Source: Rathayibacter oskolensis
GTDB taxonomy: Bacteria; Actinomycetota; Actinomycetes; Actinomycetales; Microbacteriaceae
Direction: 5' to 3'
Assembly (NCBI RefSeq): GCF_900177245.1
Contig: NZ_FXBM01000001.1
Location: 992,001 to 1,056,000 of the forward strand
DNA: 64,000 nucleotides
Below are positions 23,402 through 55,978 of the stretch, one piece after another (within the stretch, counting starts at the first letter, position 1; every line of letters starts with the position of its first letter). The translations under genes and the position numbers were made by a program. Below the pieces are notes generated by a model. The model was not told the DNA's origin. It was given only the letters and a program-made list of their open reading frames with translations, and made no database searches.

Positions 23402-23473
23402 TGCCCCCAGTAGGATTCGAACCTACGCCCCTGCCTCCGGAGGGCAGTGCTCTATCCCCTGAGCTATGGGGGC
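23402..23473 (-). tRNA. tRNA-Arg (anticodon CCG)
   Basis: The minus strand folds as a complete 72-nt cloverleaf: acceptor GCCCCCA/TGGGGGC, D-arm GCTC/GAGC, anticodon stem CTGCC/GGCAG with loop CTCCGGA (anticodon CCG, reading CGG), variable GGGC, T-arm GTAGG-TTCGAAT-CCTAC, discriminator A. CCA is not encoded. Confidence 0.96.
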
Positions 23474-35270: not shown

Positions 35271-36353
35271 ATGTTCGAATCCGTCAGCGTCCTCTTCGCC
35301 GAGTACGAGGATCTCCAGACGCAGCTGTCAGACCCCGAGCTGCACGCGGACCCCGCGCGATCGAAGAAGGTCAACCGTCGCTACGCCGAGCTGAGCCAGA
35401 TCAAGGCGGCGCACGCCGCGTGGGTCGAGGCGGGGGAGGACCTCGAGGCGGCCAGGGAGCTCGCGCGCGACGACGAGGCCTTCGCCGAGGAGGTGCCGCA
35501 GCTCGAGGAGTCGTTCCGCGTCGCGCAGGAGAAGCTGCGCCGCCTCCTCATCCCGCGCGACCCCGATGACGGCCGCGACGTGATCATGGAGATCAAGGGC
35601 GGCGAGGGCGGGGCCGAGAGCGCGCTGTTCGCCGCCGACCTCCTCCGCATGTACCTCCACTACGCCGAGGCGAAAGGCTGGAAGACCGAGATCCTCGATC
35701 GCGACGAGTCCGACCTCGGCGGCTACAAGAACGTGCAGGTCGCCATCAAGAGCACCGCGACCGACCCGTCGCAGGGCGTCTGGGCCCACCTGAAGTACGA
35801 GGGTGGCGTCCACCGCGTGCAGCGCGTTCCCGTGACGGAGTCGCAGGGCCGCATCCACACCTCGACGACCGGCGTCCTCGTGTTCCCCGAGGTGGATGCT
35901 CCGGAGGAGGTCGCGATCAACCAGAACGACCTCAAGATCGACGTCTACCGCTCGTCAGGGCCCGGCGGCCAGTCGGTCAACACCACCGACTCCGCCGTGC
36001 GGATCACCCACCTCCCGACAGGGATCGTGGTGTCGATGCAGAACGAGAAGAGCCAGCTGCAGAACCGCGAGGCCGGGATGCGCGTGCTGCGCGCCCGGAT
36101 CCTCGCCCGTCAGCAGGAGGAGATCGCCGCGGCGGCCTCCGACGCGCGCAAGACGCAGATCCGCACCATGGACCGCTCCGAGCGCATCCGCACCTACAAC
36201 TTCCCCGAGAACCGGATCGCCGATCACCGCACCGGCTACAAGGCCTACAACCTCGACGGCGTGATGAACGGAGCCCTCGACCCGGTCATCGAGAGCGCGA
36301 TCCAGTTCGACGAAGAGGCCCGCCTCGCCGACATCGGCAACGAGGAGTCGTGA
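35271..36353 (+). CDS. prfA: Peptide chain release factor 1
   Basis: A 360-residue RF1 that ends translation at UAA/UAG. The codon-recognition tripeptide is P187-V188-T189 ([15 protein letters not shown], where many RF1s have PAT). The GGQ motif is at 232-234 in [19 protein letters not shown] start. The stop overlaps the prmC start (GTGA), coupling it to the enzyme that methylates its GGQ glutamine. Confidence 0.97.
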
Positions 36354-37225
36354 GCGTCGTGTCCACCGCCGTCGACGCGCGCGCGCTGCTCGCCGACGCC
36401 GTCATCCGTCTGGCGCGAGCCCACGTGCCGACCCCCGACGTCGATGCCGAGCTGCTGCTCGGGCATCTGCTCGGTCTCGGTCGCGGACAGCTGCAGGCGC
36501 GCATGATCACCGGTCTGCCGGTCGAGGAGTCCGCGCTGGACGCCTTCGACCGGATGATCGAACGGCGCGCCTCTCGCGAGCCCCTCCAGCACATCACCGG
36601 CGTCGCGCCCTTCCGCTCGCTCGAACTCGCCGTCGGCCCGGGCGTCTTCGTCCCGCGCCCCGAGACCGAGGGAGTCGCGCAGATCGCGATCGACGCGCTG
36701 CGCTCCGTGGCCGATCCGTCGCCACTCGCCGTCGATCTCGGCACCGGGAGCGGCGCCCTCGCCCTGTCGCTCGCGCACGAGGTGCCGCACGCCCGCGTGA
36801 TCGGCGTCGAGAACGCCGTCGAGGCGTTCATCTGGGCGCGCGGCAACCGCGATCGACTGGGCCTCGACAATGCGCGGATCGTCTTCGACGACCTCTCTCA
36901 GGCACTGCCGGAGTTGGACGGCGCTGTCTCGGTCGTGGTGTCTAACCCGCCGTACATTCCCTCGAACGCGATTCCTCGCGATCCCGAGGTGCGCCTGTTC
37001 GACCCTCCGTCCGCGCTCTACGGCGGTGACGACGGACTCGACGTCGTGCGTCGACTGACGGCGACTGCGCGCCGCCTGCTGCGGCCCGGGGGAGTGCTCG
37101 TCATCGAGCACGGGGAGTCGCAGGGGGCAGAGATGCGCGCCTTGCTGACCGTGTCGGGGTGGCGGGGAGCGGCCACTCAGAGGGATTTGACGGGGCGTGA
37201 CCGGGCGACGGTGGCGGTGCGCTGA
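36350..37225 (+). CDS. prmC: Release factor glutamine methyltransferase
   Basis: A 291-residue SAM-dependent N5-glutamine methyltransferase acting on RF1/RF2. The N-terminal helical domain is followed by [12 protein letters not shown] motif [15 protein letters not shown] and N199-P200-P201-Y202. In most actinobacteria sua5 follows directly; here about 21 kb of surface-polysaccharide genes intervene. Confidence 0.95.
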
Positions 37226-37258: not shown

Positions 37259-38875
37259 TCAGAGCTCTGTAACGATGATCTCGGCGACGTTGATGGTGCC
37301 ACCGGTGACAGAATTCAAGCCCATCTTGATCCTGAAGTGCGTGGCCCAGGGTGGGGCGATCCTGCTCCACGACGTCGCGCCGAACGTCTTCTTGAAGGAC
37401 GCCACGCTCTTCACGTCGGTCATCGAGATGTTCGTGGTTCCTCGCGCGTTGGTCTTCAGCGTCACCGGCGTCGTCGTCCGGGTGAAGCCCTGATTCGCGA
37501 CGAAGCACTCGATGTACGTGAACGTCCCGCCCGCCGTGCCGCCGGCAAAGGTGATCTCGCTCGCGTAGAACTTACCCGCGGTGCAGGGGACGTCGATCGC
37601 GATGGCAGCCCAGGGCTTCGCTGCGTTCCGGGTCAGCACGAGTCTCCCGCCCGAGGTCGTCAGTGCGAGACCGGGACTGTCGGTTCGACTCGTGGCGTCA
37701 CTGGAGATTGAGAAGACGTCGACGGGCGTCGGTAGGTTGAAGGTTCCGTCGATGAGCTTGTTGGCTGACTTGTGCGTCAGAACCGCTCCCGCTCCGGATC
37801 CGGATCCGTTGCCGTCGACGAGCATCATGTTGTCGAACTTGACGTTTGCGGTTCCGCCGACCAGGTAGCCGGAGGTGGTCGTGGTGTTCATCATGGACAG
37901 GGAATTGACGCTGATTCCCCCACTCCAGCTGGTGCTCGCGGTCTCGAAGAGGTGTGCCGTCGTAGCCGGCGTCAGATAGATCAGATCCCCGCCCACGATC
38001 GTGATCTTCGCGTTCGGAGAGGCGCCGGAGTAGAACGGCGGTAGACCGGACTGGGCTGAGGCGGAACTCATCTCGAAGTGACACTGTGAGAGTGAGACCG
38101 ATCCATCTTCGGCCTTGATCGTCTGCTTGCACCAGTCGAACGAAGTGGAGTGAAAATGCACTTCCGCATCGGAGTTCGTCACGAGCACGGCGGTGTCCGA
38201 TGTGCCGATTCCGCCACCGATGAAACGGATGTCGTCGCCGGAATCGGCGAATCCACTGCGGAGAGCGACGCCAGTTGCGCAACCGTAGAGGTGGAAGGCG
38301 AAGAACGAGATGCCCGAACCACGGTTCTTGAACTCGAGTCCGGTGTGGTAGCCGTACACTTCGAGGCCGAAGAATCCGATGCCGGCGACATCACCGACAC
38401 TGGAGTCGAATTGCAGTGCAGAACTACCGAGCGACGTCTTACCCGGCCCGATCAGTCGAAGACCCCGGTAGGTCGTCCGCGCCTGCGTTCCGCCTGCTGG
38501 GGCGCTGGAGAAGAATCGAAGCGCTGGGCCGTTCGGAACGGCGGATGAATTGATGTTCGCACCGGTCATCTCTATGGAGATGTACGCGATGTCGATCTCC
38601 ACGGTCGCGTTGATGCGGAATCCGCGCGAGATGATCAGCGTCGCCTCGACCTTGTTGGAGACAAAATACTTGATCGCGAGCAGAAGGCGTTGCTCGTCCG
38701 TCAGGCCGGCATCCCCAAATTCGAGGATGTTGTGAATACTGTCGGTTCGATGCGTCACGTCGTCGGCTGACGCGGTGGGAGCTGCGGACGCTGACGCCGC
38801 TGCGACCCCGGCAATACCCGAGAGAGCGAAGACATTCCGGCGAGTCGGCTCCTTCGACGAGGAATATCTGCTCAT
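37259..38875 (-). CDS. Tat-exported beta-helix protein 1
   Basis: A 538-residue protein. The N-terminal twin-arginine signal (EPTRRNVFALSGIAGVAAASASA) is followed by a conserved block HRTDSIHNILEFGDAGLTDEQRLLLAIKYF. The central repeat-rich region (RGLRLIGPGKTS, GIGFFGLEVYGYHTGLEF, DIRFIGGGIGTSDTAVLV) looks like a right-handed parallel beta-helix as in pectate lyases and phage tailspikes. A beta-sandwich-like C-terminal part (about 370-538) may bind carbohydrate. It is paralogous along its whole length to the next gene, also 538 residues. Function unknown; a role in cutting, modifying or anchoring the locus polysaccharide is inferred. Visibly more A/T than prmC. Confidence 0.8.
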   Translation of the reverse strand: MSRYSSSKEPTRRNVFALSGIAGVAAASASAAPTASADDVTHRTDSIHNILEFGDAGLTDEQRLLLAIKYFVSNKVEATLIISRGFRINATVEIDIAYISIEMTGANINSSAVPNGPALRFFSSAPAGGTQARTTYRGLRLIGPGKTSLGSSALQFDSSVGDVAGIGFFGLEVYGYHTGLEFKNRGSGISFFAFHLYGCATGVALRSGFADSGDDIRFIGGGIGTSDTAVLVTNSDAEVHFHSTSFDWCKQTIKAEDGSVSLSQCHFEMSSASAQSGLPPFYSGASPNAKITIVGGDLIYLTPATTAHLFETASTSWSGGISVNSLSMMNTTTTSGYLVGGTANVKFDNMMLVDGNGSGSGAGAVLTHKSANKLIDGTFNLPTPVDVFSISSDATSRTDSPGLALTTSGGRLVLTRNAAKPWAAIAIDVPCTAGKFYASEITFAGGTAGGTFTYIECFVANQGFTRTTTPVTLKTNARGTTNISMTDVKSVASFKKTFGATSWSRIAPPWATHFRIKMGLNSVTGGTINVAEIIVTEL

Positions 38876-38881
38876 GACAGA

Positions 38882-38887
38882 AGGCTA
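38882..38887 (-). promoter_or_regulatory. Leaderless-type -10 (TAGCCT) of beta-helix gene 1
   Basis: TAGCCT on the minus strand ends 6 nt before the ATG at 38875, so gene 1 probably has its own promoter. Confidence 0.45.
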
Positions 38888-39015
38888 AACCGCATCGAGG
38901 AGAGACCCGTTTCCCGGTACCCCCCCAATGGCGGACGGCTCGATCGGACGGTTCCTCACTGTTTCAAGTCGAGGTCAGGGTAATACCGGAGTTGCGGCCG
39001 GTCTCGCCCGGAAGA

Positions 39016-40632
39016 TCACACCTCAGTGACGATCACGTCCGAGATCTCCACTGTTCCGACGGATAGCCGCGAGATGTCGAGGGACAACCTGAAGTGCGTC
39101 GCCCAGGCCGGGGCGGCACGGGTCGAGGATGGTGCTGTGAAGCTGAGCGCAGCGGGCAGCCTGGTCTTCAGTTCGTCCATGGACACCTGGATGGATTCGC
39201 GGACGTCCGACTTCGCCGCGCTGGGGATTGAGGCTGTCGGCTGACCGATCACTGCTATGAACGTCTCGGAGTAGGTGAAGGTTCCGCTCGAGGTCCCTCC
39301 TGACACGGTCAGGGAGTTGGCGTACACCTTGCCGGCTACGCAGGGGACGTCGAAGGCGACGACCACGGGTGAGCTCGCGGACGTCCTCGTCACGATGAGC
39401 TTTCCCGCCGACGTCGTCAGCGTCGCCCCACCTGCAGCTGTCCTCGACGTCGAGGCCGGCGCGGTGAAGAAGGCATCGGCCACAACGGCGAGGTCGAAGG
39501 AACCGTCGATCAGCTTGTTGTTCTTGGGGGACGTGAGGAGGCTTCCGCTGTTGGAGGCGCTGCTCGGGCTGTCCTCCAGTACGACTTGATCAAGTCGAAC
39601 GTTGCCAGTTCCTCCGATCAGGTATCCGGTAGTCGTGCGCGCAGTGCCGATCGCGAAGTTGACCACGACGATCCCGCATCCCCAGCTCGGGTTCTGGGTC
39701 TCGAAGAACGAAGCCGCTGTGCAGACCGATGACGCTGTCAGCCGCCCCCCGATCACCTGCACCTTCGCATCGGTCGACGTCCCCGTGAAGAAGGGAGGAA
39801 GCTTCGTAGAGGCCGCTCGATCGCCGAGTTCGACCTCGCATTCGGAAAGGAACACGCCGCCTTTCTCCACTCGAACCGCTTGACCGCAGTCCTCGAACCT
39901 GGTCGACGTTACGTGGATGTTGCCGTTCGAGTTGTTGTTGTGGATACCTCGACCGCAAGCAGATATCTCTCCACCGATGAACTTGATGTTCTCGCCGTAA
40001 TTCGCGGCACCGGAGGGCATCGATGCTCCGGTGCCGCAATCGGTGATCGAGAAGGAGAAGAAGTTGAAGAGGTAGGCGTTGTTCAAGAACTCGACTCCGG
40101 TGCCGAAGTCGGAGATCTCGAGGCCGTAGAAACCCACGCCGCGAACGGGATAGGTCGGGGAGTCGAAACGGATTCCGACGCTCGCAGTCCCCTCGCCCGG
40201 TCCTGTGAGTCGAAGGCCTCGGTATGAATTTCGAGTGTACGGGTAGCCCGAGCTGCTGCTGTTGAGGAATCGGAGAGCAGGGCCGGTCGTGATGGTCGAG
40301 CAGTCGATAGCGCCACCTGTCATCTCCAGTGAGACCCAAGCAATATCGATGTCGACCGGTGACGTGAGGGTGAGCCCGCGCGAGATGATCAGCGTTCCCT
40401 GGACTTTGTTGTCCGGGAAGTACTTGAGACCGAGACGGAGGCGCTGCTCGTCGGTGAGTCCTTCATCGCCGAATTGAAGGACGTTGAAGAGGCTCTCGGT
40501 CCGCCGAGCAGGATTGTCTGCAACTGCTGGCGGGGCTGCGACCGTCACCGCCACCGCAGCGAGTCCGCTGACGGCCGACGTCTTGATTAGGAGCCGTCGG
40601 CTCGGCGAAAGGCCGCTGCTGGTATCAGTCAT
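39016..40632 (-). CDS. Tat-exported beta-helix protein 2 (paralogue of protein 1)
   Basis: A 538-residue protein. The twin-arginine signal is LSPSRRLLIKTSAVSGLAAVAV. It shares with protein 1 FGDxGLTDEQRL, NKVxxTLIISRG, RGLRLxGPG, GFxGLEV/GLEI, GYLxGGTxNV, NKLIDGxF and DVPCxAGK. The fold is again predicted as a beta-helix with a C-terminal beta domain; several Asn/Ser/Cys-rich turns fit. No catalytic site can be assigned. Tandem duplication followed by divergence is the simplest history. Confidence 0.8.
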   Translation of the reverse strand: MTDTSSGLSPSRRLLIKTSAVSGLAAVAVTVAAPPAVADNPARRTESLFNVLQFGDEGLTDEQRLRLGLKYFPDNKVQGTLIISRGLTLTSPVDIDIAWVSLEMTGGAIDCSTITTGPALRFLNSSSSGYPYTRNSYRGLRLTGPGEGTASVGIRFDSPTYPVRGVGFYGLEISDFGTGVEFLNNAYLFNFFSFSITDCGTGASMPSGAANYGENIKFIGGEISACGRGIHNNNSNGNIHVTSTRFEDCGQAVRVEKGGVFLSECEVELGDRAASTKLPPFFTGTSTDAKVQVIGGRLTASSVCTAASFFETQNPSWGCGIVVVNFAIGTARTTTGYLIGGTGNVRLDQVVLEDSPSSASNSGSLLTSPKNNKLIDGSFDLAVVADAFFTAPASTSRTAAGGATLTTSAGKLIVTRTSASSPVVVAFDVPCVAGKVYANSLTVSGGTSSGTFTYSETFIAVIGQPTASIPSAAKSDVRESIQVSMDELKTRLPAALSFTAPSSTRAAPAWATHFRLSLDISRLSVGTVEISDVIVTEV

Positions 40633-40639
40633 GGTGGCG

Positions 40640-40645
40640 ACGGTA
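40640..40645 (-). promoter_or_regulatory. Leaderless-type -10 (TACCGT) of beta-helix gene 2
   Basis: TACCGT on the minus strand ends 7 nt before the ATG at 40632. Confidence 0.45.
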
Positions 40646-40803: not shown

Positions 40804-41346
40804 TCAAGGTGAGCGGTCGGGCTGCGAGGACCCTGATAGTGACTTCAGGCGGCGGGCCGGGACGCCTCCCCACACCGAGTCGTCCTCGCAGTCCTCAGTC
40901 ACGACCGCCCCCGCGGCGATGACGACGCCTCGTCCAATGGTGACGCCGGGGAGGATGATCGCCCTGGCGCCGATCCAGGAACCGTCCCCGACGACGATGG
41001 GCGCCGTCGTCGCTGCTCCCGCGCGGCGACGAAAGTCACCGGGTGCATGGGAGCTGGTGATGAACGAGGCGTCCATCGCGATGTCGCAGTTGCGCCCTAT
41101 CCGGATGCCGCCGGCCGAGTTGAAGATGCATCGATAGTTGACGAACGAACCAGCCCCGATGCTGATGTCGCGGCTCCCTATCCAGATACCCGCGCAGAGG
41201 CGTGACTTCTCGACGTCGAGGCCGAGCAAACGCAGCACCCGCCACCGGAACGAGATCGGTATGAGCGACGATGCAGCGACTCTGTTCAGCACCACGTCGC
41301 GGGAGATGATCCAGAGTTCTTTCCGGACTTTCGAGGCGATGGACAC
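40804..41346 (-). CDS. Hexapeptide-repeat acyltransferase (LbH/CatB-WcaF type)
   Basis: A 180-residue protein. From about residue 50 it shows left-handed beta-helix turns (ISIGAGSFVNYRCIF, GGIRIGRNCDIAMDASFI, PIVVGDGSWIGARAIILPGVTIGRGVVIAAGAVVTED). The catalytic His is in TSSHAPGD, and the family ending VWGGVPARRLK is present. It probably O-acetylates a sugar of the locus glycan. GTG start at 41346, 59 nt after the ligase-like gene on the same strand. Confidence 0.88.
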   Translation of the reverse strand: MSIASKVRKELWIISRDVVLNRVAASSLIPISFRWRVLRLLGLDVEKSRLCAGIWIGSRDISIGAGSFVNYRCIFNSAGGIRIGRNCDIAMDASFITSSHAPGDFRRRAGAATTAPIVVGDGSWIGARAIILPGVTIGRGVVIAAGAVVTEDCEDDSVWGGVPARRLKSLSGSSQPDRSP

Positions 41347-41405: not shown

Positions 41406-42863
41406 TCACGTCGGGCGATGTTGCGAAGCGGCGAGCGAACGCGGTCGGGAGTTGCGGACGGAGCTGCCGCGCGTCACGCGGTTCGAGCGCTCGGGCCGCG
41501 CCGACATGCTGGTCAGCGGTTCGGACGACGGGGTCCGCCCTTCGCCGGCACGGGCGGCGAGATAGGCGATGGCGATCCAGATCGTCATCACCGTCCACGA
41601 AGGTGTCGCGTTGAGCCCGACGAACAGGAAGACGGCCAGAGCGAAGTCGAGTCGGTTGATTCGCCGGACGCGCCACGCGAGCGCGACGAGCAGCAGAGTG
41701 AAGGCGAGGAAGGCGAAGAGTCCGTGCTCGGCGAAGATCTGCACGAAGGCTGACGGGGTGATCGGACGGATCCCGGAGCTGTAGCCGGCCGGGACGGTAC
41801 TGAAGTCCGCGTACGACGGCTGGTAGACGCCGAACCGGCCTGCACCTACTCCGGCCCCTGCATGATCCCAGCCCATTCCGATCCCGGCGTCGGCGTTGAG
41901 AGTGCGAGTCCGGGACGAGTACGAGATGCTGTCGCCCGCCGCTGCAGCCGGCCCGAGCCCCAGCTTGCCGAGCTGGTGATCGGCGTACGCGGTGACGGAA
42001 GGGACGAAGGCGAACGCCAGACCCAGGATCGGGATGACCGAGCCCACGAGTGCTGTACCCGCCCTGACATCGGGCCGGAGAATGAGCATGACCCCGATGC
42101 CGACGATGAGACCGGCGAGAGCGGAGGTCGACTGCGAGTACAGCAACAGGGCGACGGCGAGGAAGCAGTCGACGGTGCGGCGTCTCACCGTCGCTCCTCG
42201 CAATGAGGTGAAGAACGCGAACGCGGCGAAGAAGCCGAGGTAGTTGCCCTCGAGGAAGGATCCGTTCCTCGGAAGATTCGTGCCGAACGCGCGACCGAAC
42301 TGGATGTTGCCGTTCACGATCGCCAGTACACTGCTCGAGCCCGCCAGCCACAGGCCTATCTGCACCAGGGCGTACAGGGCGGCGAGTCGGACCGCCACTG
42401 ACGTGGCGCGGACGATGACATCCGCTCCGATGCGCGTCGCCATCAGATAAGCAGTAGCGATCACGAGGATCGCGTACGCCGTGTACTGGAGGAGGTCGAG
42501 CGTGAAGCCCAGGCTGTAGCCGGGCGCCGAGGCCACCGGCAGAGGCGTGAGGGCGGCGATGAGGGTGGACGCGCCGATTATCACGGTGAAGACAGCGAGG
42601 AGGGGCCAGCCGGCGAAGGAGGATCGCGCTCGAGCTCCGCCGACCACGCAGAAGAAGCAACCGAGGCCGGCGAAGATCTCGCTGAGCTTGAGCGGGAAAC
42701 CGACGGAGACGGTGAAGACCTGCTGGAACGGGACGAACGCCACGGTGAGGAAGAGGCAGAGTTCAGCAAGGGTCAGGGACTTCCGGCCCGAGTGCACCTG
42801 GAGCCCCCCCGAGCGCGCCTGAGGCTTCATTGAACGATCTCGTCTCGCGTCTGGGCCGGTCAT
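41406..42863 (-). CDS. O-antigen ligase/Wzy-like polymerase
   Basis: A 485-residue polytopic membrane protein with about eleven to twelve hydrophobic segments. The large extracytoplasmic loop after about residue 300 (HAGAGVGAGRFGVYQPSY) carries the G-G-N/F-like Wzy_C pattern of the O-antigen ligase/polymerase family. It would join lipid-linked repeat units outside the membrane. The ATG at 42863 is chosen because TACACT lies 7 nt before it; ATG 42830 is the alternative. Divergent from the GT2 operon. Confidence 0.85.
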   Translation of the reverse strand: MTGPDARRDRSMKPQARSGGLQVHSGRKSLTLAELCLFLTVAFVPFQQVFTVSVGFPLKLSEIFAGLGCFFCVVGGARARSSFAGWPLLAVFTVIIGASTLIAALTPLPVASAPGYSLGFTLDLLQYTAYAILVIATAYLMATRIGADVIVRATSVAVRLAALYALVQIGLWLAGSSSVLAIVNGNIQFGRAFGTNLPRNGSFLEGNYLGFFAAFAFFTSLRGATVRRRTVDCFLAVALLLYSQSTSALAGLIVGIGVMLILRPDVRAGTALVGSVIPILGLAFAFVPSVTAYADHQLGKLGLGPAAAAGDSISYSSRTRTLNADAGIGMGWDHAGAGVGAGRFGVYQPSYADFSTVPAGYSSGIRPITPSAFVQIFAEHGLFAFLAFTLLLVALAWRVRRINRLDFALAVFLFVGLNATPSWTVMTIWIAIAYLAARAGEGRTPSSEPLTSMSARPERSNRVTRGSSVRNSRPRSLAASQHRPT

Positions 42864-43010: not shown

Positions 43011-43997
43011 GTGTCGACGTCGAGGCCTGTTGCATCTTCCGCCAACGACCGAGAGGCCTTCTTGTCTGCCGTCACAGTGATCTACGTCGCCTATCACACG
43101 CCATTGGCGATGATCATGGACAGCATCGAATCGGTCGAGCGTGCCGCTGAGGTCGCCGGAGCCGACGTCGAGATCCTCGTCGCCGACAACGGTGGAGCGG
43201 CGCAGCATGCGGATGCGTTGTCCGGGCGGGCCGCAGTCGTCGGCGCCGGGCGCAACGTCGGCTTCGGCGACGCGGTGAACGACTGCGTGCAGATGTCGTC
43301 GGGCGAATGGGTGTTGATGATGAATCCGGATTCGCGGGCGCGCCCGGAGCTGCTCGAGTCGCTGTTGAGGCACGCTCGGCCTTCCACTCGTACGTTCTTC
43401 GGGTCGCTCCTGATCACGAACGGGCGGGCTCAGGTCCATGCGTTCAATCTCTGGTGGTCGTCCCTCGAACTGCTCGCCCGCAAAGCCTCCTTCTCTCGTC
43501 GTCTTGACGAGTGGATCGAGACCTCGATCCCGGTTCCGGTCCCTCGTCTCTGCGGCGCGGGCCTCTTCGGCCGGCGGGCGGACCTGCTCGAGGTCGGGCC
43601 GTTCGACGCGTCCTTCTTCCTGTACGGCGAAGACGTTGACTTTTCGCTCCGTGCCCGCGCCCGCGGGTACGACCTGATCCTCGTGCCCACTGCCGTCATC
43701 GACCACGACGCAGGGACCTCCTCGGAGGGAGCATCGGAACTCGTCCAAGCGGCGCGCACCGACGCGCATCTCCGCTTGCTCGCGCATCACCGACCACTGC
43801 CGTTCGCCCTGGTCGCCCGTCTCGAGTACACGATCTCCACGGCCGCCGGAGTGCTGACGAACCTGCTCAGAGGGCAGGTGTGGCGTGCTCGTGCGGCTCG
43901 ATTCCCGGAGATCCGCCGCTGGGGCGTCCAGAGGGAGGCGCCCCGCTTTGACCCGGTCGAGTGGGCTTCGCGGTCCGCTCGGAAGCGGACTCCATGA
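43011..43997 (+). CDS. Family 2 glycosyltransferase (rhamnosyltransferase-like)
   Basis: A 328-residue GT-A enzyme. It has VTVIYVAYHTP at the start of the fold, EILVADNGG, the RNVGFGDAVND motif common in rhamnosyl/galactofuranosyl transferases, the metal-binding MNPDSRARPELL and an EDVDFSLRARARGYD acceptor helix. Donor uncertain; rmlB nearby makes a dTDP-deoxysugar plausible. GTG 43011 is used; a TAGCGT hexamer at 42986-42991 may be its -10. First gene of a seven-gene plus-strand operon. Confidence 0.87.
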   Translation: MSTSRPVASSANDREAFLSAVTVIYVAYHTPLAMIMDSIESVERAAEVAGADVEILVADNGGAAQHADALSGRAAVVGAGRNVGFGDAVNDCVQMSSGEWVLMMNPDSRARPELLESLLRHARPSTRTFFGSLLITNGRAQVHAFNLWWSSLELLARKASFSRRLDEWIETSIPVPVPRLCGAGLFGRRADLLEVGPFDASFFLYGEDVDFSLRARARGYDLILVPTAVIDHDAGTSSEGASELVQAARTDAHLRLLAHHRPLPFALVARLEYTISTAAGVLTNLLRGQVWRARAARFPEIRRWGVQREAPRFDPVEWASRSARKRTP

Positions 43998-45265
43998 GGG
44001 GGCCGCTTCGGCGCATCCATCGAGTCATGAACACCCCGGCGGGAATCAGCCTCTCCCGGGTCTTCACCGCCGCCCTTTCTCTTGTGACGGCGCCGATCAT
44101 CGCTCATGCGATCGGCCCGGAGGGGCGCGGCTTGACCGCCGGGTCCCTGGCGGCGATACAGATCATTGGCATCGCGGCCGGTATGGGAGTCCCGCTCGCC
44201 GTTCGACGCAGATCGGTTCAGGAGTCGGATCGTGCAGATCTGATCCGGACCGCGCGGTTGTTCGGCTGGTTCACCGCAGTTCCCGCTGCGGCAGTGGGAG
44301 TCGCCTGCCTCCTTCTCTTCCTGGGCGGCCTGGGACCGGTGGACTCGGTCATCTTCCTCATCGCCATGGCGTCGGGCGCGCTGACCGTTCTGTGGACCAT
44401 AGACGCGAATGTCTTCGTCGCTGAGAAGATGTACTTCCGCATCGTCAGCCTCAGTTCCATCCAGACGGTCGTGTACTTCGCAGTGATCGTCTGCCTTTGG
44501 GCGTTCGGGGCCCTGACTGTGGGTGGCGTCCTGCTCGCCTTTGTGGCCGGCACCGTCGCCGCTTTCGCCCTGGGACGGTTTTGGGTCCGCGCCGGTGCAG
44601 GAAAGGTCCGTGGTCTCGGCTCCCTGTGCCGCGAGGGTGCGACGATGTGGGGGAGTCAGGCCGCCGAGATCGCGAGCTATCGGCTGGACCAGCTGCTTGT
44701 GCTTCCAGTGATCGGGGCCTCTGCCACAGGCATTTACTCGATCGCAGTCACAATAGGAACTCTGCCCTTCAGCCTCGCTGTCGGTCTCGGAGCAGCCGTC
44801 TTCCAGGGCTTCGCTCGATCCGACTCGAAGGACCTCGTCGTCACCGCACTGCGCCACATCTTCGTCGTGACCTCCGCCGTGAGTATCGTGCTGGGGGTCG
44901 CTGCGGTCTGGGTCGTACCTCTGCTGTTTGGCGAGAGGTTCTCCGAGTCGGTCCCCGTAGCGTGGATCACGCTCATCGGCTGCCAGTTCATCGTCGGGAA
45001 CTACATCGCAGTCACGGCGCTGGTCTCTCGCAAGCAGGGGATGAGCATGACTGCCATGCAGGTCATCGGTCTCGCCGTCGGGATCGCGGCCCTGTATCCG
45101 TTGGGCGCGGTATGGGGTCCGATGGGCGCTGCCACGGCCTCCTCCTTGGGTTATGCGGTGACGCTCGCCTTCGCGCTCTTCGCGCTTCGCATCTCCCCAC
45201 TCGCCGTCGTTCCGCGGCCGCGAGACGTGCGGCCGGCCTTCAAGACCTTCCTCGAGCGCGGATGA
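43994..45265 (+). CDS. Wzx-like polysaccharide flippase
   Basis: A 423-residue membrane protein with about twelve helices, of the MOP/polysaccharide_synt type. The N-terminal amphipathic stretch SLSRVFTAALSLVTAPIIAHAIGPEGRG matches the usual start of Wzx/RfbX proteins. It would flip undecaprenyl-linked repeat units to the outer face. ATG overlaps the GT2 stop (ATGA). Confidence 0.87.
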   Translation: MRGPLRRIHRVMNTPAGISLSRVFTAALSLVTAPIIAHAIGPEGRGLTAGSLAAIQIIGIAAGMGVPLAVRRRSVQESDRADLIRTARLFGWFTAVPAAAVGVACLLLFLGGLGPVDSVIFLIAMASGALTVLWTIDANVFVAEKMYFRIVSLSSIQTVVYFAVIVCLWAFGALTVGGVLLAFVAGTVAAFALGRFWVRAGAGKVRGLGSLCREGATMWGSQAAEIASYRLDQLLVLPVIGASATGIYSIAVTIGTLPFSLAVGLGAAVFQGFARSDSKDLVVTALRHIFVVTSAVSIVLGVAAVWVVPLLFGERFSESVPVAWITLIGCQFIVGNYIAVTALVSRKQGMSMTAMQVIGLAVGIAALYPLGAVWGPMGAATASSLGYAVTLAFALFALRISPLAVVPRPRDVRPAFKTFLERG

Positions 45266-45335
45266 TGCGCGCGAACACAGTCCCGCTGATCCTCGCTCCC
45301 GCGATGCATCCCTCTCACCGCACGGGCGGTGGATC

Positions 45336-46256
45336 GTGACTCCGACACTCCTCCTCGCAGAGGCGGTGCCACTCGCTTCAGCGCTCGCAGCCGAGATCGC
45401 CCGAACCGAGGGGATTCGGCTCCTGTGCATCAAGGGCCCGAGCGCCGCGATCCTCGGGCTCCGAGAGCCTCGGGTGTCCAGCGATGTCGACGTCCTGGTC
45501 GACCCCGCGCAGTGGGACGCCTTCGTCGATCAGCTTGTTCGGCGCGGATGGAAGGCCCGGGTGGAATCGGATGCGCCGAGATTCTTCCCCCGCCATTCTC
45601 AGACCTACTCGCACCCTGCCTGGCCCTGCGACATCGATGTGCATCACCAGTATCCGGGCTTCTTCGCCGCTCCTGGCGAGGCCTTCGCCGTACTGTGGCC
45701 GCGACGGACGTCCGTCGCCCTCGCAGGCGTGGACGTCGAGGTGCCGGACCGCATCGCGAGCGGTCTGATCCTCGCGGTTCACGCGCTCCGCGACCCAGAG
45801 GCCCCGCGCTCGATCTCGGAGCTCGCGCTCCTCGAGACTCGCCTGGTAAACGACTCCGGTGACATGCAAGACGTCCTGCAGCTTGCGGAACGACTCCGCG
45901 CGCGATCGACGTTGCGCCCGTTTCTCCGAAGACTGCCGGGGATCGGCCCTCTTCCCGAGGACCTGACTTCTCATGAGCTCGAGGCCTGGCTGCTCCTCAC
46001 TGCCAACGAGCGGACGACGGCCTTCCACTGGTGGGTCGCTCTGACGAAAGGGCCGTGGGCGAGGCGGCCCCGTATCCTTGTGAAAGCCTTCCGGCCTATT
46101 GTGACGGCTCTCGTCAGAGGAGAAGTGAGCTGGACCGAGACAGTGAGAAGCCTGCGGCTTCACGCCCGCGGGATCCGACGTAGCCGTGCCGCCTTCCGGC
46201 GTTCGCGCGCGCGTCGGTGGACCGAGGACGAGCAAGGCAGGAGGCGGAGCCGGTGA
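45336..46256 (+). CDS. Nucleotidyltransferase-fold protein (NTP_transf_5-like)
   Basis: A 306-residue protein. The Pol-beta-type acidic motif SSDVDVLVD and preceding KGPSAAILG fit the uncharacterised nucleotidyltransferase family (PF14907) found in polysaccharide and peptide-modification loci. A CDIDVHHQYPGF segment adds further acidic/His residues. Substrate unknown. Its stop overlaps the next GT4 gene (GTGA). The same operon ends with a PqqD-like gene, its usual companion. Confidence 0.75.
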   Translation: MTPTLLLAEAVPLASALAAEIARTEGIRLLCIKGPSAAILGLREPRVSSDVDVLVDPAQWDAFVDQLVRRGWKARVESDAPRFFPRHSQTYSHPAWPCDIDVHHQYPGFFAAPGEAFAVLWPRRTSVALAGVDVEVPDRIASGLILAVHALRDPEAPRSISELALLETRLVNDSGDMQDVLQLAERLRARSTLRPFLRRLPGIGPLPEDLTSHELEAWLLLTANERTTAFHWWVALTKGPWARRPRILVKAFRPIVTALVRGEVSWTETVRSLRLHARGIRRSRAAFRRSRARRWTEDEQGRRRSR

Positions 46257-47443
46257 GCGGAGTCGATGAGCATGCGGCGGACCGACGAGATAAGGAGGAT
46301 GACGTGCCTTCTGCGTCGTCACGATTACAAGATGACGCCCGGAGTTCCTCGGACCCGACCGTCATCCTCAGTGGGCGTAAAGCGGTGGTGCACATCGCCG
46401 AGAGCTTTGCTGGAGGAGTCTCTGTCGCGATCCAGGACTACATGAGGAACACGCCGGAGAGATCGCATCACCTCATCTTCGCGCAGCGCTCGGATGCCCC
46501 GATTTCGGGGTCCGAGCTTCAAGACTTCGCAACGGTGACGCCGCTGCCGCTCGGCTTCCTCGCACGAATCAGAACGATCCGGCGCGTGGTGTCCTCCCTG
46601 CCGGACGTCATCGTCCACGCACACTCCAGCTTCGGCGGGGCGTACACCAGGTTGGCGCTGCGGGCGAAATCGTCATGCCCGATCGTCTACACACCGCACT
46701 GCTACGCCTTCGAGCGCAGGGACATCTCCACGCTGTGGAGAGTCGCGTACCGCGCCGTGGAGTTCGCGCTCTCCTTCAACACCTCCGCTTATGCTGCCTG
46801 CTCGAGACGCGAGGAGACGCTCTCGAAGTGGCCGCTCGGACGGCGGAAAGCTGTCTTCGTTCCGAATGTGCCACCCCGCCACCTCGTGCCCCGCAGCGCC
46901 TTCGCCCCGGAGGACAGTGAGCGGTCACTCCGAGTCGTCGGGGCCGGCCGATTCGGCGCGCAGAAGGCGCCGGAGTTCTTCGCTGCCGCAGTGGCCGATC
47001 TTCGGGCCGCAGGACACGATCTAGATGCGCTGTGGATCGGCGGAGGGAGAGACGACAGGATCCAGGGTCTGCTCGATCAGGCCGGAGTCCGCGTCACGGG
47101 ATGGTTGCCGAGAGAATCAGCGCTAGAGATCCTCGTCACCGCCGACCTCTATCTGCACGTAGCCCGCTGGGAGGGCTTCCCCGTCGCTGTTCTGGAGTCC
47201 GTAGCGCTCGGCGTCCCGACCATTGTGCGAGCGATTCCGGCGTTCGACGACGTAGCCCTTCCTGTCAAAGTCGACGACCCGACAGACCTCCGCCTGAGAT
47301 GGTCGGAACTGATCGACCCCGCCGTGAGGAACCGTCTGGTCCAGGAGTCGAGACAAGTGCTCGCCGACTATTCGGACTCAGGCCAGGCGCGCGCATTGCG
47401 TCGGATATACGACGGCGTCCCGGCTTCCAAGAAAGGGCAATGA
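46253..47443 (+). CDS. Family 4 glycosyltransferase
   Basis: A 396-residue GT-B enzyme. The N-terminal domain contains HIAESFAGGVSVAIQDYM and the HAHSSFGG motif. The C-terminal nucleotide-sugar domain has VGAGRFGAQKAPEFF, the WIGGG loop and E-x7-E in ARWEGFPVAVLESVALG. The first 40 residues are charged and poorly conserved, so the true start may lie later than GTG 46253. Coupled to the previous gene by GTGA. Confidence 0.87.
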   Translation: MSGVDEHAADRRDKEDDVPSASSRLQDDARSSSDPTVILSGRKAVVHIAESFAGGVSVAIQDYMRNTPERSHHLIFAQRSDAPISGSELQDFATVTPLPLGFLARIRTIRRVVSSLPDVIVHAHSSFGGAYTRLALRAKSSCPIVYTPHCYAFERRDISTLWRVAYRAVEFALSFNTSAYAACSRREETLSKWPLGRRKAVFVPNVPPRHLVPRSAFAPEDSERSLRVVGAGRFGAQKAPEFFAAAVADLRAAGHDLDALWIGGGRDDRIQGLLDQAGVRVTGWLPRESALEILVTADLYLHVARWEGFPVAVLESVALGVPTIVRAIPAFDDVALPVKVDDPTDLRLRWSELIDPAVRNRLVQESRQVLADYSDSGQARALRRIYDGVPASKKGQ

Positions 47444-47444
47444 G

Positions 47445-48503
47445 ATGACTCGAGTTCTCGTTTCAGCACGCGTTATCGACAAGCAGGTCGGCGGCAACAC
47501 CCGGTATGCAAGGACGCTCTACGACGGCCTGTCCGAGTTCGGAGTCGACCACATCCTCGGCCGCCCTCCGCGCATCCCTCGAATTCCACGGAGCGCCGTC
47601 TACGCGGCGTACGAGGGGGTTTTCCTGCCGCTCCGGCCGCCGAAGGACGTGGATGTGGTGCACTTCCCCGCAGACACGGGCGCGCTGCTCTCCGCGAGCG
47701 TCCCTCTGGTCGGCACGATTCACGGGCTCGCGACTCTCCACGTTCCCCATGTGCGGACAGCTTCTGCCGATCGAATCTGGCGATATCGAGTCATGCGTCT
47801 GGCCAAGGTGGCGACGAGGATCATCACGATCTCCGACTCATCGGCGCGGGACATAGCCTCGGTCGCGCCCGAGGCGGCGGGGAAGATCGTGAAGATCCTG
47901 CACGGGATCGACCACGGGAAATTCCGGCCCGAGGAAGGATCAGCCGATGCGGCGGAACTCGAGAGCCTCCAGATCGACGGTCCCTACTTCCTCTATCTCG
48001 GGAACCTCGATCCTCGGAAGAATCTGGTCGAGTTGTGCCGCGCCGCGCAGATCGTGCATCAGAAGACAGGTATCCCGCTTCTGATCTCCGGTGCACCGGC
48101 ATGGGACAGCGACGCGATCATGCAGACCATCACGACCACACCGGGTGTCCGATACCTGGGTCGTGTGTCGGACGAGGCGATGCTGCCCCTCCTCCGCGCT
48201 GCGACTGCGTTCTGTTTCCCTTCGACGTACGAGGGCTTCGGCTTCCCCGTGGTCGAAGCGCAGGCGTGCGGGACTCCCGTCGTCTGCAGTGACCGCGGTT
48301 CTCTCGCTGAGATCGCCGGTGACTCCGCGCTGATCGTAAAGGAGCTCGACGGCCCATCGATTGCGCGCGAGATGCTCCGGGTTCTCGACGAGCCGAGTCT
48401 CGCCGGCGAGCTGCGAAGGAGGGGGATCGCGAATGCCGCCCGCTTCCAGTGGCATGAATCGATCTCCGCCCACGCCGAGGTGTTCAAGGAGGCTAGCCGG
48501 TGA
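47445..48503 (+). CDS. Family 4 glycosyltransferase
   Basis: A 352-residue GT-B enzyme resembling mannosyl/rhamnosyl transferases. It has an N-terminal ARVIDKQVGGNTRYARTLY loop, HFPADTG, ITISDSSARDI, LYLGNLDPRKNLVELC and E-x7-E in FPSTYEGFGFPVVEAQACGTPV. ATG one base after the previous stop, with GAAAGGG as ribosome site. Coupled to the pyruvyltransferase by GTGA. Confidence 0.92.
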   Translation: MTRVLVSARVIDKQVGGNTRYARTLYDGLSEFGVDHILGRPPRIPRIPRSAVYAAYEGVFLPLRPPKDVDVVHFPADTGALLSASVPLVGTIHGLATLHVPHVRTASADRIWRYRVMRLAKVATRIITISDSSARDIASVAPEAAGKIVKILHGIDHGKFRPEEGSADAAELESLQIDGPYFLYLGNLDPRKNLVELCRAAQIVHQKTGIPLLISGAPAWDSDAIMQTITTTPGVRYLGRVSDEAMLPLLRAATAFCFPSTYEGFGFPVVEAQACGTPVVCSDRGSLAEIAGDSALIVKELDGPSIAREMLRVLDEPSLAGELRRRGIANAARFQWHESISAHAEVFKEASR

Positions 48504-49618
48504 GGATCACGCTCGTGCACGCTTATAGTTCGACGAATTCGGGCGACGGCCTGCTGGTCGAGGAAGCTGCAGGACTCGTCCGGGACGCCTTCCCGACTGC
48601 GGTCATCACGCTTGTCGCGACGGATCCGCAGAGCTTCGACGGCAATCGCTTCGCCGCTGTGCTGCATCCCGCCACGGGTGGATCATCCGGCGTCAGCCGC
48701 GTCGAAGCTCTGCTTCGAGGTGCAGCTCTGGTTGCCACCGGACGCCGCGCCGCACCGCTGGAGGCCATCATCGCCGGGTCGGACCTCGTGGTAGCAGTCG
48801 GCGGAGGCTACCTGCGAGGGAAGTCCCCGGTTGAAGCGGCGAAGATGATCTTTGCCCATTATCTCCAGATGCCGAGGGCGAAGGACCGCACTCCCTTCAT
48901 CTACCTGCCACAGAGCATCGGACCACTTCGATTCGGTTCCAAGCGTCTGGTAGCGGCACGGCTGCGGAACGCCACTCTGGTGGTCGGCCGTGACGATCGC
49001 ACTGTGGCTGAACTCGCCTCGGACAACGTCATCCGCAGGCCGGACATGGCTCTCCTCGGCCTCCCGTCGGAATGGGACGCGTCGGGAGTCGTCGCCCCCT
49101 CGAACGGCACGCCCATCGGTCTGGTCGCTCGCGAGCTCTCCTCGACGCCGGCTCGCATTCGCCGGTACCGATCCCGTATCGGGCAACTGGCCGTCTCTCC
49201 GGGGTTCGAGTTGCTTGCCCAAGCCACGGCGCGGGGGAACGACGACCCGTCCTTCTATCGCACTCTCGGTTTCGACGCACCTGTTCGCACGTTGCGGGCA
49301 GCCGTGGCGAGAGAATCGGAGAGCCGGCCTCAGGTCGTGGTGTCCGTTCGCCTGCACGGTTCGATCCAGACCATTCGCAGCGGGGTGCCGAGCATTCATC
49401 TCAGCTACGAGCGGAAGGGATTCGGGGCATACGACGATCTTGGGATCAGCAAGTACGTGCACAACGTGTTCGACTTCGAGCCGGACCTGATTCTCTCGCA
49501 GGTCGCAGAACTGACCGAGGATCCCTCCGAGTATTGGTCCTCGGTGGGGAAGGCCGTCGGCTCACTAGCAGAAGCCAGAGCGGACCTCGTCGAACGTCTC
49601 CGGAGGGCGGTCGGGTGA
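48500..49618 (+). CDS. Polysaccharide pyruvyltransferase family protein
   Basis: A 372-residue member of the PS_pyruv_trans family, which adds pyruvate ketals from PEP to sugars. The N-terminal Gly/Asp motif SSTNSGDGLLVEEA, VVAVGGGYLRGKS, YLPQSIGPLRF and the late VSVRLHGSIQTIRSGVPSIHLSYERKG (conserved His-Gly and Glu-Arg-Lys) are the family marks. GTG coupled to the GT4 gene. A second family member is encoded at 51848-52957. Confidence 0.87.
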   Translation: MRITLVHAYSSTNSGDGLLVEEAAGLVRDAFPTAVITLVATDPQSFDGNRFAAVLHPATGGSSGVSRVEALLRGAALVATGRRAAPLEAIIAGSDLVVAVGGGYLRGKSPVEAAKMIFAHYLQMPRAKDRTPFIYLPQSIGPLRFGSKRLVAARLRNATLVVGRDDRTVAELASDNVIRRPDMALLGLPSEWDASGVVAPSNGTPIGLVARELSSTPARIRRYRSRIGQLAVSPGFELLAQATARGNDDPSFYRTLGFDAPVRTLRAAVARESESRPQVVVSVRLHGSIQTIRSGVPSIHLSYERKGFGAYDDLGISKYVHNVFDFEPDLILSQVAELTEDPSEYWSSVGKAVGSLAEARADLVERLRRAVG

Positions 49619-49899
49619 CCGCCTGGCGGCGACGCCGGGTGGCGAGCGTCGAATCGCAGGACCGAGTCGTCTTTCTCGACGTGGCCTCTCCCTCGGCGGT
49701 CCCGATGCTCCTGACCGGAACAGCACTCGAGGTCTGGGACCAGCTGGCATCGGGGTCCGAGGTCGAGGAGGCCGCCATCGTCGGCGCGCTGGCCGATCGC
49801 TTCGGCGTCGACGAGGAGGACATGGCTGTTGATGTGGCCGTCTTCCTCCGGCTACTCGCGACGTCGGGGGCGGTCGAGGCGGTCGTCCGAGCGCGCTGA
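49615..49899 (+). CDS. PqqD-family small protein
   Basis: A 94-residue protein. LTGTALEVWDQLASGSEVEEAAIVGALADRFGVDEEDMAVDVAVFLRLLATSGAVE follows the PqqD pattern (LTGxxxxVWxxL, Dx2xFLxxLxxxG). PqqD-type proteins bind peptide substrates as RiPP recognition elements, but many sit in polysaccharide loci with no known peptide. GTG coupled to the pyruvyltransferase by GTGA; last gene of the operon. Confidence 0.8.
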   Translation: MTAWRRRRVASVESQDRVVFLDVASPSAVPMLLTGTALEVWDQLASGSEVEEAAIVGALADRFGVDEEDMAVDVAVFLRLLATSGAVEAVVRAR

Positions 49900-49911
49900 C
49901 CCTGCGCGCTC
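49889..49911 (+). terminator. Hairpin at the end of the plus-strand glycan operon
   Basis: GAGCGCGC (49889-49896) pairs with GCGCGCTC (49904-49911); the stop codon is in the loop. It lies between convergent operons. Confidence 0.45.
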
Positions 49912-49944
49912 ACTGATCCGTCGGAGCAGCTCCAGGCGTCGGCC

Positions 49945-50613
49945 CTAGCGTCCGGAATGCAGATTCGGAGCGTCGAACCTCTTCGCGATCTCCTTGAGAA
50001 GGGCGTCGGCTTCCGCGGGGTCGAGATCCCATGGTCGCTCCTTCAGGAGGGCCTGACGCACGGGCTCTTCGAGACGCATCTTGATGAGCTTCGCAGGGCT
50101 GCCGCCGACGACGGCGAAGTCCGGCACGTCCTTCGTGACGACAGCGCCCGCGCTGACGACGGCGCCGACACCGATGCGCCGGCAGCCGGGCACGATGATG
50201 ACGTTCGCGCCGAGCCAGGCCTCATCCGCGATCTCGCAGGGAGTCCGCTCGACGTCGGCACCGGCGTCTACGTAAGAGAGCCGCGGGTTGTACCAGATCG
50301 GGTGGAGGCTGAGGTGGTCCATCGGATGAGATGCTCCGAATCGCCGGACGTTCGGTCCGATCGAGACGTACCGGCCGATCGTCGTGTGCCGATCTGCTGA
50401 TCCAGGAGTGAGAAGGGATCCGTAGCTGTATGCGCCGACGTCTACGCCGTAGGCCGACCTCAGCACCTCCCGCAGACTGTTCGAGTACATTGCGCCGTTC
50501 TCCCGAGAGGTGATGACCCGTAGTGCCGCCGACTTCTTTGGGAGGACGGCGTAGTGCCTCGCGAGCCATGCGGCCAACGGATCGGTCGTCATCGTGAAGC
50601 CCGCTTCCGACAT
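49945..50613 (-). CDS. CatB/Vat-type hexapeptide acetyltransferase
   Basis: A 222-residue acyltransferase. It has hexapeptide turns (GAYSYGSLLTPGSADRHTTIGRYVSIGPNVRRFG), the catalytic His in GASHPMDHLSLHP, IADEAWLGANVIIVPGCRRIGVGAVVSAGAVVTKDVPDFAVVGGSPAKLIKMR, and the long C-terminal helix of the xenobiotic/sugar acetyltransferases. ATG 50613 is favoured by GAAAGGG at 6 nt; ATG 50640 is the alternative and overlaps the upstream gene's stop as ATGA. Last gene of the minus-strand operon. Confidence 0.88.
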   Translation of the reverse strand: MSEAGFTMTTDPLAAWLARHYAVLPKKSAALRVITSRENGAMYSNSLREVLRSAYGVDVGAYSYGSLLTPGSADRHTTIGRYVSIGPNVRRFGASHPMDHLSLHPIWYNPRLSYVDAGADVERTPCEIADEAWLGANVIIVPGCRRIGVGAVVSAGAVVTKDVPDFAVVGGSPAKLIKMRLEEPVRQALLKERPWDLDPAEADALLKEIAKRFDAPNLHSGR

Positions 50614-50636
50614 GTGCTGCCCTTTCGTAGATGAGG

Positions 50637-51851
50637 TCATCGGGACCGCCACGAGCGGGCGAGCGTTCCGAGGAAGGTCTTCGCTGCGAGCCGGGGATGT
50701 CTGGCGGACCTGAGGACGAGACTGTAGCCCTCGAACCGGGGGATGCGCTTGCCGGCGAGGAGACGAGCGGCCAGGCGCACCGCAAGGGTGCGACGGCGGT
50801 TCACTTGAAGCGGCTGGATACGAGCGACCTCGTCGAGGTCGACCGGCTCCAGAACGATGAGTCCGGCTGCCGCTGCAGCGAGCAGCAGTGCGTGACCCCG
50901 ATCCGTTCGAGCAATGGCCACGGACATCCCCTGGGCGTCGTCGAAGAGGGGGTACCCCTTCTCATCGGCCTTCCAGAAGTCACCGACCGAGACGTCCGAA
51001 TCCTCCCCGGTGCCGTCCGGACAGATCTTGCACCGCCACTGGAGGTCCCGACCCAGGTGCTTCCCCCAGGAATCGTCGTAGGTGACACTGCCCGAGGCGG
51101 AGGGGCTCTCGGCGACGAAGTGCCCGGGCCACCCGTTCCCGCGGTACCGCAGCGATGTCACGTCATCCGGCACCACCCCGAGCTTCTCGATGAGGCGATC
51201 GGTGGCGCGCTGGCTGGGAGTCCCCGCGCAGAAGAAGGAGAGGAGGATCGGCAGGTCCGCCTCGGATTTCCCGCTCTCGAGATGCAGGCGGCGTGCGGCC
51301 GTAGCCTCGCAGGGCTTGCCTACGAGGGCAGCTCTGTCTGAGGAGTCGAGGTAGCCCGAGAGGGCGGATACCGGAGCGTATCGTGAGCCACTCGATGCGA
51401 GCGCCTCCTCACGGGTGGTGATCCGGACCGGAACGGTGCGGCGGGGCGTCTCGATATCCGAGCGGGCACCGATGACGGTCGACGCTATGCCCGCCGTTAC
51501 GATGTGCTGCGTCAATGCCGTCAGGACGCCGGCGCTGCTTCCAGCGTCTCGCACCGCGGGGTCCGCTGCGAACGCGCGCCATGCGGAGACATGCAGACCG
51601 AAGGTCTCGTGGTCCTTCCGGTCTCCTCGCTCCTGACGGCGCATTCGACTGCCGGGACAGACCTGTTCGAAGAGGGAGGTGTGACGGCGCTCCTCCTCAC
51701 GGGAGATGCTGTCCGGATCGATCGTCGGACGCATCCATCCGTCGTCGGAGTAGACCATAGACACGCGGTCCGAGAGAAGTGCGCACGCCCCGCAGCCGGA
51801 GCAGTTCCCGTTCTCGACGACGCGAGCGATCGAGTTCCCCAAGGTCCTCAT
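50637..51851 (-). CDS. FrhB-type iron-sulfur protein (coenzyme F420 hydrogenase beta-like)
   Basis: A 404-residue protein. The N-terminal C17-SGC20-GAC23 cluster motif and a following CPG are joined by the FrhB_FdhB N- and C-domains (SSAGVLTALTQHIVTAGIA, LVGKPCEATAARRL, LLSFFCAGTPSQRAT) and WRCKICPDGTGEDSDVSVGD. Such proteins recur next to pyruvyltransferases in surface-glycan loci; their redox role there is not settled. The ATG overlaps the stop of the neighbouring pyruvyltransferase (ATGA). Confidence 0.87.
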   Translation of the reverse strand: MRTLGNSIARVVENGNCSGCGACALLSDRVSMVYSDDGWMRPTIDPDSISREEERRHTSLFEQVCPGSRMRRQERGDRKDHETFGLHVSAWRAFAADPAVRDAGSSAGVLTALTQHIVTAGIASTVIGARSDIETPRRTVPVRITTREEALASSGSRYAPVSALSGYLDSSDRAALVGKPCEATAARRLHLESGKSEADLPILLSFFCAGTPSQRATDRLIEKLGVVPDDVTSLRYRGNGWPGHFVAESPSASGSVTYDDSWGKHLGRDLQWRCKICPDGTGEDSDVSVGDFWKADEKGYPLFDDAQGMSVAIARTDRGHALLLAAAAAGLIVLEPVDLDEVARIQPLQVNRRRTLAVRLAARLLAGKRIPRFEGYSLVLRSARHPRLAAKTFLGTLARSWRSR

Positions 51852-52957: not shown

Positions 52958-52965
52958 GGCGCGAC

Positions 52966-54153: not shown

Positions 54154-54161
54154 GTCGTCGG

Positions 54162-55509
<1,348 letters not shown>

Positions 55510-55532
<23 letters not shown>

Positions 55533-55770
55533 CGCTCGTGCGCTCTCCCGCTCCAGTTGCAGCAGATCCGCGGTCGCGCTTCGTCGCGACCGCGGGATCG
55601 CCGGCGAAGACCGCCGTCCCCAGGACCGCTTCAACGGCACTGAATGCCGTGGCGACGTCCTCCCGCCACGATCCGCGACAACGGCAGTTGCCACTCGATG
55701 GGGGCTGACATGCAGACACCCCCAATAGAAGGGACGCAACGATGCCGAGTCGGATCCACGCGCGTCGCAT
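55510..55770 (-). CDS. Possible small lipoprotein, perhaps truncated
   Basis: An 86-residue frame. MRRAWIRLGIVASLLLGVSAC is a convincing lipoprotein signal with lipobox VSAC, followed by SGNCRCRGSWREDVATAFSAVEAVLGTAVFAGDPAVAT. The C-terminus runs into the 19-bp repeats and stops there (DDPVRSR), which suggests the original 3' end was lost or replaced. No ribosome site or family recognised, so it may be a remnant or chance. Confidence 0.4.
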
Positions 55771-55964
55771 GCGTGCGGTCGATCACGACGCGCGGAGGTC
55801 GCTTCATTCGGCCCGAGCACTACGAGCCGAGCGCGATCCGTCCTTCACGACCCTGTCGATCGCATCGCGAGGGAGCGAGGACAGGCCGCGCGCTCTCTAT
55901 CGAGCGAAGCGCCGCGTCCAGCTACGCCTCCGTCGGACAGGATCGCCGAGTCTCGCTACTCGGC

Positions 55965-55970
55965 TACAGT
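55965..55970 (+). promoter_or_regulatory. Leaderless-type -10 (TACAGT) of the acyltransferase
   Basis: TACAGT ends 8 nt before the GTG at 55979, which also decides the start. Confidence 0.55.
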
Positions 55971-55978
55971 CGCTCACC

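Follow-up and report, generated by a model that had tools for sequence, protein, structure and literature searches.

A tailspike-like protein is known from exopolysaccharide (EPS) biosynthesis in Pantoea stewartii. The stewartan cluster of this species includes the gene for WceF, which carries a twin-arginine (Tat) signal and forms a trimer of tailspike-like beta-helices; it cuts stewartan slowly, and wceF mutants make longer EPS (PMC7949094). Among the phage enzymes, the catalytic residues are Glu267 and Glu323 in the Klebsiella phage K2-2 tailspike (PMC10936425), and Glu362 and Asp426, situated on different subunits, in CBA120 TSP3 (PMC7506556). Here we describe two genes of Rathayibacter oskolensis in a 64,000-nucleotide stretch of contig NZ_FXBM01000001.1 (positions 992,001 to 1,056,000, hereafter the window, to which all coordinates refer). 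They are adjacent open reading frames of 538 residues, labeled W1 and W2, in a 21-kb EPS island that runs from prmC to sua5, and lie on its prmC side. We consider it likely that both are EPS depolymerases of phage-tailspike ancestry that have been built into this island, where their probable task is to trim the slime of the bacterium itself.

37259..38875, minus strand: W1, 538-residue Tat-signal tailspike-type beta-helix protein
39016..40632, minus strand: W2, 538-residue paralogue of W1

A first-pass annotation made from the sequence had described the two genes as equal-length paralogues that are alike from end to end and yet clearly diverged, and this description holds: the proteins share 43% identity and 63% positives in an alignment of 539 columns that has 2 gaps (BLASTP, E 6e-152), and 140 bp separate the genes. 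The same annotation could assign no known enzyme family. No Pfam family matches W1 or W2 at E up to 1, including the beta-helix and pectate-lyase families PF13229 and PF12708, and the matches in NCBIfam (0.038) and PHROGs (0.4) are at chance level; homology to phage tailspikes is seen by tblastn and with a hidden Markov model (HMM). By tblastn against phages, W2 finds a Klebsiella przondovirus protein (8e-11) and a protein of Bacillus phage Moonbeam (1e-5 over 83%), and W1 finds Klebsiella proteins of the same kind (8e-13 over 87%), while IMG/VR contributed four further tailspike sources, in most of which the upstream genes look tail-like by eye, and one close relative of the first source. An HMM built from nine phage sequences alone matches W2 at 3.5e-46 (residues 86-537) and W1 at 2.7e-33, against 0.11 for the best of 2000 shuffled control sequences. 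It also recognizes proteins of two related genomes, G403 (G403a 1.1e-48, G403b 9.7e-21) and G005 (G005a 4.6e-9, G005b 2.6e-4). In the tree, W1 and W2 group together with G403a and G403b (100/100), and the position of this group beside the Klebsiella phage has only 82/81 support. W1 and W2 are homologous to the receptor-binding and depolymerase part of phage tailspikes, in the C-terminal domain as well as the helix; they lack the virion-binding N-terminus and have a Tat-type signal there instead.

The midpoint-rooted tree does not by itself settle the direction of transfer, but passage from phage to bacterium appears likelier, because the phage relatives span many hosts and the bacterial ones found are few. 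A scan of genome contigs for the pattern of the W1/W2 pair returned 176 stretches and no relatives. With at most three candidates per genome scored among the matches listed, the family-wide search gave a single distant paralogue (1 of 398 at 1e-5), and the searches at order and phylum level gave 0 of 396 each, empty answers being uninformative by themselves. Plasmid sequences gave no match to W2, the only query used there, and PDB sequences none to W2 or to a seven-sequence profile. Distant Tat-type beta-helix paralogues outside the EPS island occur in 3 of 15 genomes of the genus (G001, G176 and G402; loci L079:1039-2667, L084:1174-2820 and L086), with a coaE-like neighbor, judged by eye, in L079 and L084; they keep the three conserved acids discussed below and an H-F-E motif, and score 4e-22 to 6e-20 with the phage HMM.

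The beta-helix suspected in the first-pass annotation stands in structure prediction, which gives a right-handed beta-helix followed by a C-terminal beta-sandwich in both proteins. Confidence in these models is moderate, with pLDDT (predicted local distance difference test) block means of 69-96 for residues 51-270 and 53-83 for residues 271-350, and in the PDB the folds that match them best are those of phage depolymerases acting on capsule or O-antigen. The C-terminal beta-sandwich of W1 bears an A-P-x-W-A-T-H-F motif common to several phages. Both N-termini, in which twin-arginine signals had been noticed earlier, carry an RR motif and a hydrophobic stretch, together with an A-x-A site (W1 TRRNVFA to ASA before D, W2 SRRLLIK to AVA before D); the Tat assignment is a call on the RR-motif pattern alone, and a slightly stricter RR-plus-hydrophobic pattern is met by 15 of 463 other open reading frames of at least 300 residues from such islands. 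The first strand of the models begins at residue 47, only 9-10 residues past the end of the signal (37-38). A Tat signal is less unusual for a tailspike-like beta-helix protein than had been claimed. The parts of the two proteins are as follows.

38765..38875, minus strand: W1 Tat-type signal, residues 1-37, ending A-S-A with putative cleavage before D (sequence and pattern control)
40519..40632, minus strand: W2 Tat-type signal, residues 1-38, ending A-V-A with putative cleavage before D (sequence and pattern control)
37817..38737, minus strand: W1 right-handed beta-helix, residues about 47-353 (predicted model m4d81ea00bda6, fold matches)
39574..40494, minus strand: W2 right-handed beta-helix, residues about 47-353 (predicted model m80461c2ad931, fold matches)
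37262..37669, minus strand: W1 C-terminal beta-sandwich, residues 403-538 (predicted model, alignment, phage HMM)
39019..39426, minus strand: W2 C-terminal beta-sandwich, residues 403-538 (predicted model, alignment, phage HMM)
38072..38236, minus strand: W1 candidate active-site residues D214, D247, H266 and E268 (18-sequence alignment)
39829..39993, minus strand: W2 candidate active-site residues E214, E247, E266 and E268, Glu replacing His266 (18-sequence alignment)

The candidate active site is drawn from an alignment of 18 sequences, in which position 214 is acidic in 17, position 247 in 16 and position 268 in 17, and position 266 is His in 14. The acid spacing of 54 in W1 and W2 is close to the 56 of K2-2, a comparison of spacing alone, made without residue-level superposition. 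G403b (L091:14922-16505) has T214, S247, T266 and R268; the loss of all three conserved acids suggests from its sequence that it may be a binding-only copy. G005a has lost one of them, with Leu at 247. A general rule by which every pair would contain one dead copy was rejected. The three aligned phage relatives have 17 columns that are acidic throughout, and each copy of the G176 pair (51% identical) is acidic at 12 of these.

The surroundings of the pair are those of polysaccharide biosynthesis, as listed here.

36350..37225, plus strand: prmC, left island border (in 15/15 genomes of the genus, 77-85% identity)
40804..41346, minus strand: hexapeptide acetyltransferase between Wzy and W2 (PF14602, PF00132; start read by eye)
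41406..42830, minus strand: Wzy-like polymerase/ligase (PF04932, 6.4e-9)
43011..58012, strand not specified: remainder of the island, with glycosyltransferases, flippase, NTP_transf_5, two pyruvyltransferase-type genes, a sugar-nucleotide dehydratase-type gene and an acyltransferase-SGNH (Pfam)
58350..59234, plus strand: sua5, right island border

The Wzy-like gene reported beside the pair is real; between it and W2 lies the acetyltransferase gene, its stop 171 bp from W2. PrmC shares 81-85% identity with its counterparts in Rathayibacter genomes including R. tanaceti and R. iranicus, and the GC content of the window is 0.61-0.73 per 2 kb. The NTP_transf_5 gene (PF14907, 45336-46256) has look-alikes, by eye, in many other islands. 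At 50637-54097 an F420-hydrogenase-beta-type protein (PF04432, PF04422) adjoins a pyruvyltransferase-type gene whose 749-residue frame is probably over-long, because PS_pyruv_trans spans residues 399-675 only and a 442-residue frame overlaps its start. A tRNA-Arg (ccg) gene lies at 23401-23473 on the minus strand.

W1 and W2 also share a type of start. The proposal that each has its own leaderless-type promoter is supported at the level of sequence, because a TANNNT element at -14..-7 without a Shine-Dalgarno sequence precedes 4 of 4 genes (W1, W2 and both G403 relatives) as against 9 of 1079 window ATGs; the acetyltransferase and Wzy genes lack this pattern. A generic sigma-70 promoter scan found none, and Rfam gave nothing above the gathering score.

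38882..38887, minus strand: TAGCCT, -10-like element 7-12 nt before the W1 ATG (no Shine-Dalgarno, leaderless-type start)
40640..40645, minus strand: TACCGT, -10-like element 8-13 nt before the W2 ATG (no Shine-Dalgarno, leaderless-type start)

Both prmC and sua5 were found in all 15 Rathayibacter genomes, 17-31 kb apart in the 11 that have them on one contig and split over contigs in the remaining four. Outside the genus, 27 of the 30 loci checked (of 70 non-Rathayibacter-type) have them 12 bp to 4.3 kb apart, and the other three show no sua5 within the 0.2-5.0 kb downstream examined. Among the 12 complete islands compared (the window and 11 relatives), six hold Tat-signal tailspike or beta-helix proteins by profile-level evidence, belonging to at least three different tailspike families: two genes each in the window, G403, G005 (59% identical) and G176, and one each in G402 and G334. 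The proteins of G176 and G402 match the tail spike family phrog_29706 (2.5e-48 to 2.6e-56), and that of G334 matches the tail spike family phrog_27786 (1.8e-31) together with PF25692, Phage_depo_C (7.9e-20). At E up to 1e-5, these two PHROG families occur only at the islands in the 15 whole genomes and in 0 of 14 control genomes. Phage relatives come from Rhodococcus and Arthrobacter phages for G176 (6 records) and from Gordonia, Rhodococcus, Klebsiella and Escherichia phages for G334 (21 records). A 545-residue protein of G304, with no phage match and no Pfam or PHROG family, was left out of the six because its tailspike nature was judged by eye only. When it is included, 4 of 7 islands hold two tailspike-type genes, adjacent in three and 11 kb apart in G403. 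In four islands (the window, G176, G402 and G304) the tailspike-type gene adjoins prmC, in G334 and G403 a single gene separates the two, and in G005 it is found at the end near sua5; the gene between it and prmC in G334 encodes a GH5 cellulase-family protein (L099:12624-13937).

Three other islands encode polysaccharide-lyase-type proteins near prmC, namely a Tat-signal PF14099 polysaccharide lyase in G004 and a Hepar_II_III/CBM96 protein in G226 and G361. G051 and G401 have, away from prmC, a very large secreted-looking protein (1491 and 1590 residues; L102:13010 to L103, and L107/L108) whose C-terminal part is beta-helix-like by eye, and that of G051 has repeated CE2_N and fn3 domains (Pfam on the first 897 residues). 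In our reading, the prmC-sua5 island is a site where genes for exported proteins that act on polysaccharides are placed again and again.

In the working model, W1 and W2 would be folded before export by the Tat system and would assemble as homotrimers, as tailspikes do. The groove of the helix would bind the polysaccharide made by this locus and the conserved acids 214, 247 and 268 would cut it, which may determine how long the slime chains become or how the slime is released or turned over. Trimerization or sugar binding may be helped by the C-terminal sandwich, and the two copies could differ in the linkage cut or in binding strength. The roles first suggested for the pair (glycan lyase, tailoring epimerase or surface anchor) are supported in part, the main guess being borne out. 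Tailspike-derived matrix lectins or adhesins that only bind and cross-link polysaccharide are an unlikely alternative, as the acids at 214, 247 and 268 are kept in both W1 and W2 and three other islands have a recognizable lyase-type protein instead. For tailoring enzymes of the C-5 epimerase type, modifying the polymer without cutting it, there is very little room, since the fold alone is common to many enzymes whereas the sequence homology of W1 and W2 is to tailspikes; we know of no tailspikes that are epimerases.

Homology to tailspikes would also suit a cryptic prophage or tailocin beside the island, with W1 and W2 as its virion proteins. This is scarcely credible, because the pair is flanked by prmC, Wzy and sua5, the 20 frames scanned with Pfam include no family of tail, head or integrase proteins, the virion anchor is replaced by the Tat-type signal, and in the 15 whole genomes the two other tailspike families match only at the islands at E up to 1e-5. 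Free secreted tailspikes might, alternatively, defend the cell by stripping the capsule receptor of phages or by attacking the slime of competitors. The presence of different tailspike families in different islands speaks for such a role, which is compatible with depolymerization of own slime, but the site in a biosynthetic island fits self-processing equally, and as the main function we regard defense as improbable. A wider proposal, to which we give slightly less than even credence, is that the prmC-sua5 island recruits phage tailspikes: at least three families would have been taken up separately, their anchors exchanged for Tat signals, often in pairs and matched to the polysaccharide of the island, serving own-slime trimming and possibly phage exclusion.

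These readings give an unannotated family a testable function, and suggest that the idea known from WceF, own slime cut by a tailspike-type enzyme, has arisen outside enterobacteria and with different tailspike families in related species. As each island would pair a polysaccharide with its candidate depolymerase, reading tailspike specificity from sequence becomes testable, and likewise the effect of self-encoded tailspikes on phage adsorption. Among the matches listed in open-licence texts, no titles concern tailspike-like genes in Rathayibacter or other actinobacterial EPS loci.

When helix and C-terminal domain are compared together, the fold that matches best is that of the K2-2 tailspike (8IQ5, 8IQ9, 8IQE), at about 13-16% identity. 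This tailspike spaces its two catalytic Glu similarly (PMC10936425); it has a virion-binding domain where W1 and W2 have the Tat-type signal. The second receptor-binding protein of przondoviruses (AmPh_EK52, Kund-ULIP47/54, K80PH1317) and Moonbeam AIW03487 are homologues over most of their length and have the same C-terminal motif, but their N-termini are unlike those of W1 and W2, with no Tat-type signal by eye and, in the Klebsiella protein, a virion-anchor match. WcaM of E. coli, encoded in the colanic acid cluster next to wcaL and beginning with an RR motif, was rejected as kin (hhalign probability 0.2%, no phage-HMM match). Vibrio cholerae RbmB is, to our knowledge, not tailspike-derived. 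WceF (PDB 6tgf) shares with W1 and W2 the place in an EPS cluster, the Tat-type signal, the tailspike-like beta-helix and the C-terminal beta-sandwich; its enzyme activity is proven, and it has P22-like head and neck domains that W1 and W2 lack. Sequence searches from W1 and W2 did not reach WceF, and the fold matches to it are weak (E 4.5e-3 and 8.1e-5). W1 and W2 most likely work like WceF, but they are not placed in its family, as the searches found no similarity in sequence and the P22-like head has no counterpart in them. What is new with respect to that precedent is the Gram-positive host, with W1 and W2 as a tandem pair, the recruitment of different tailspike families, and the frequency of pairs.
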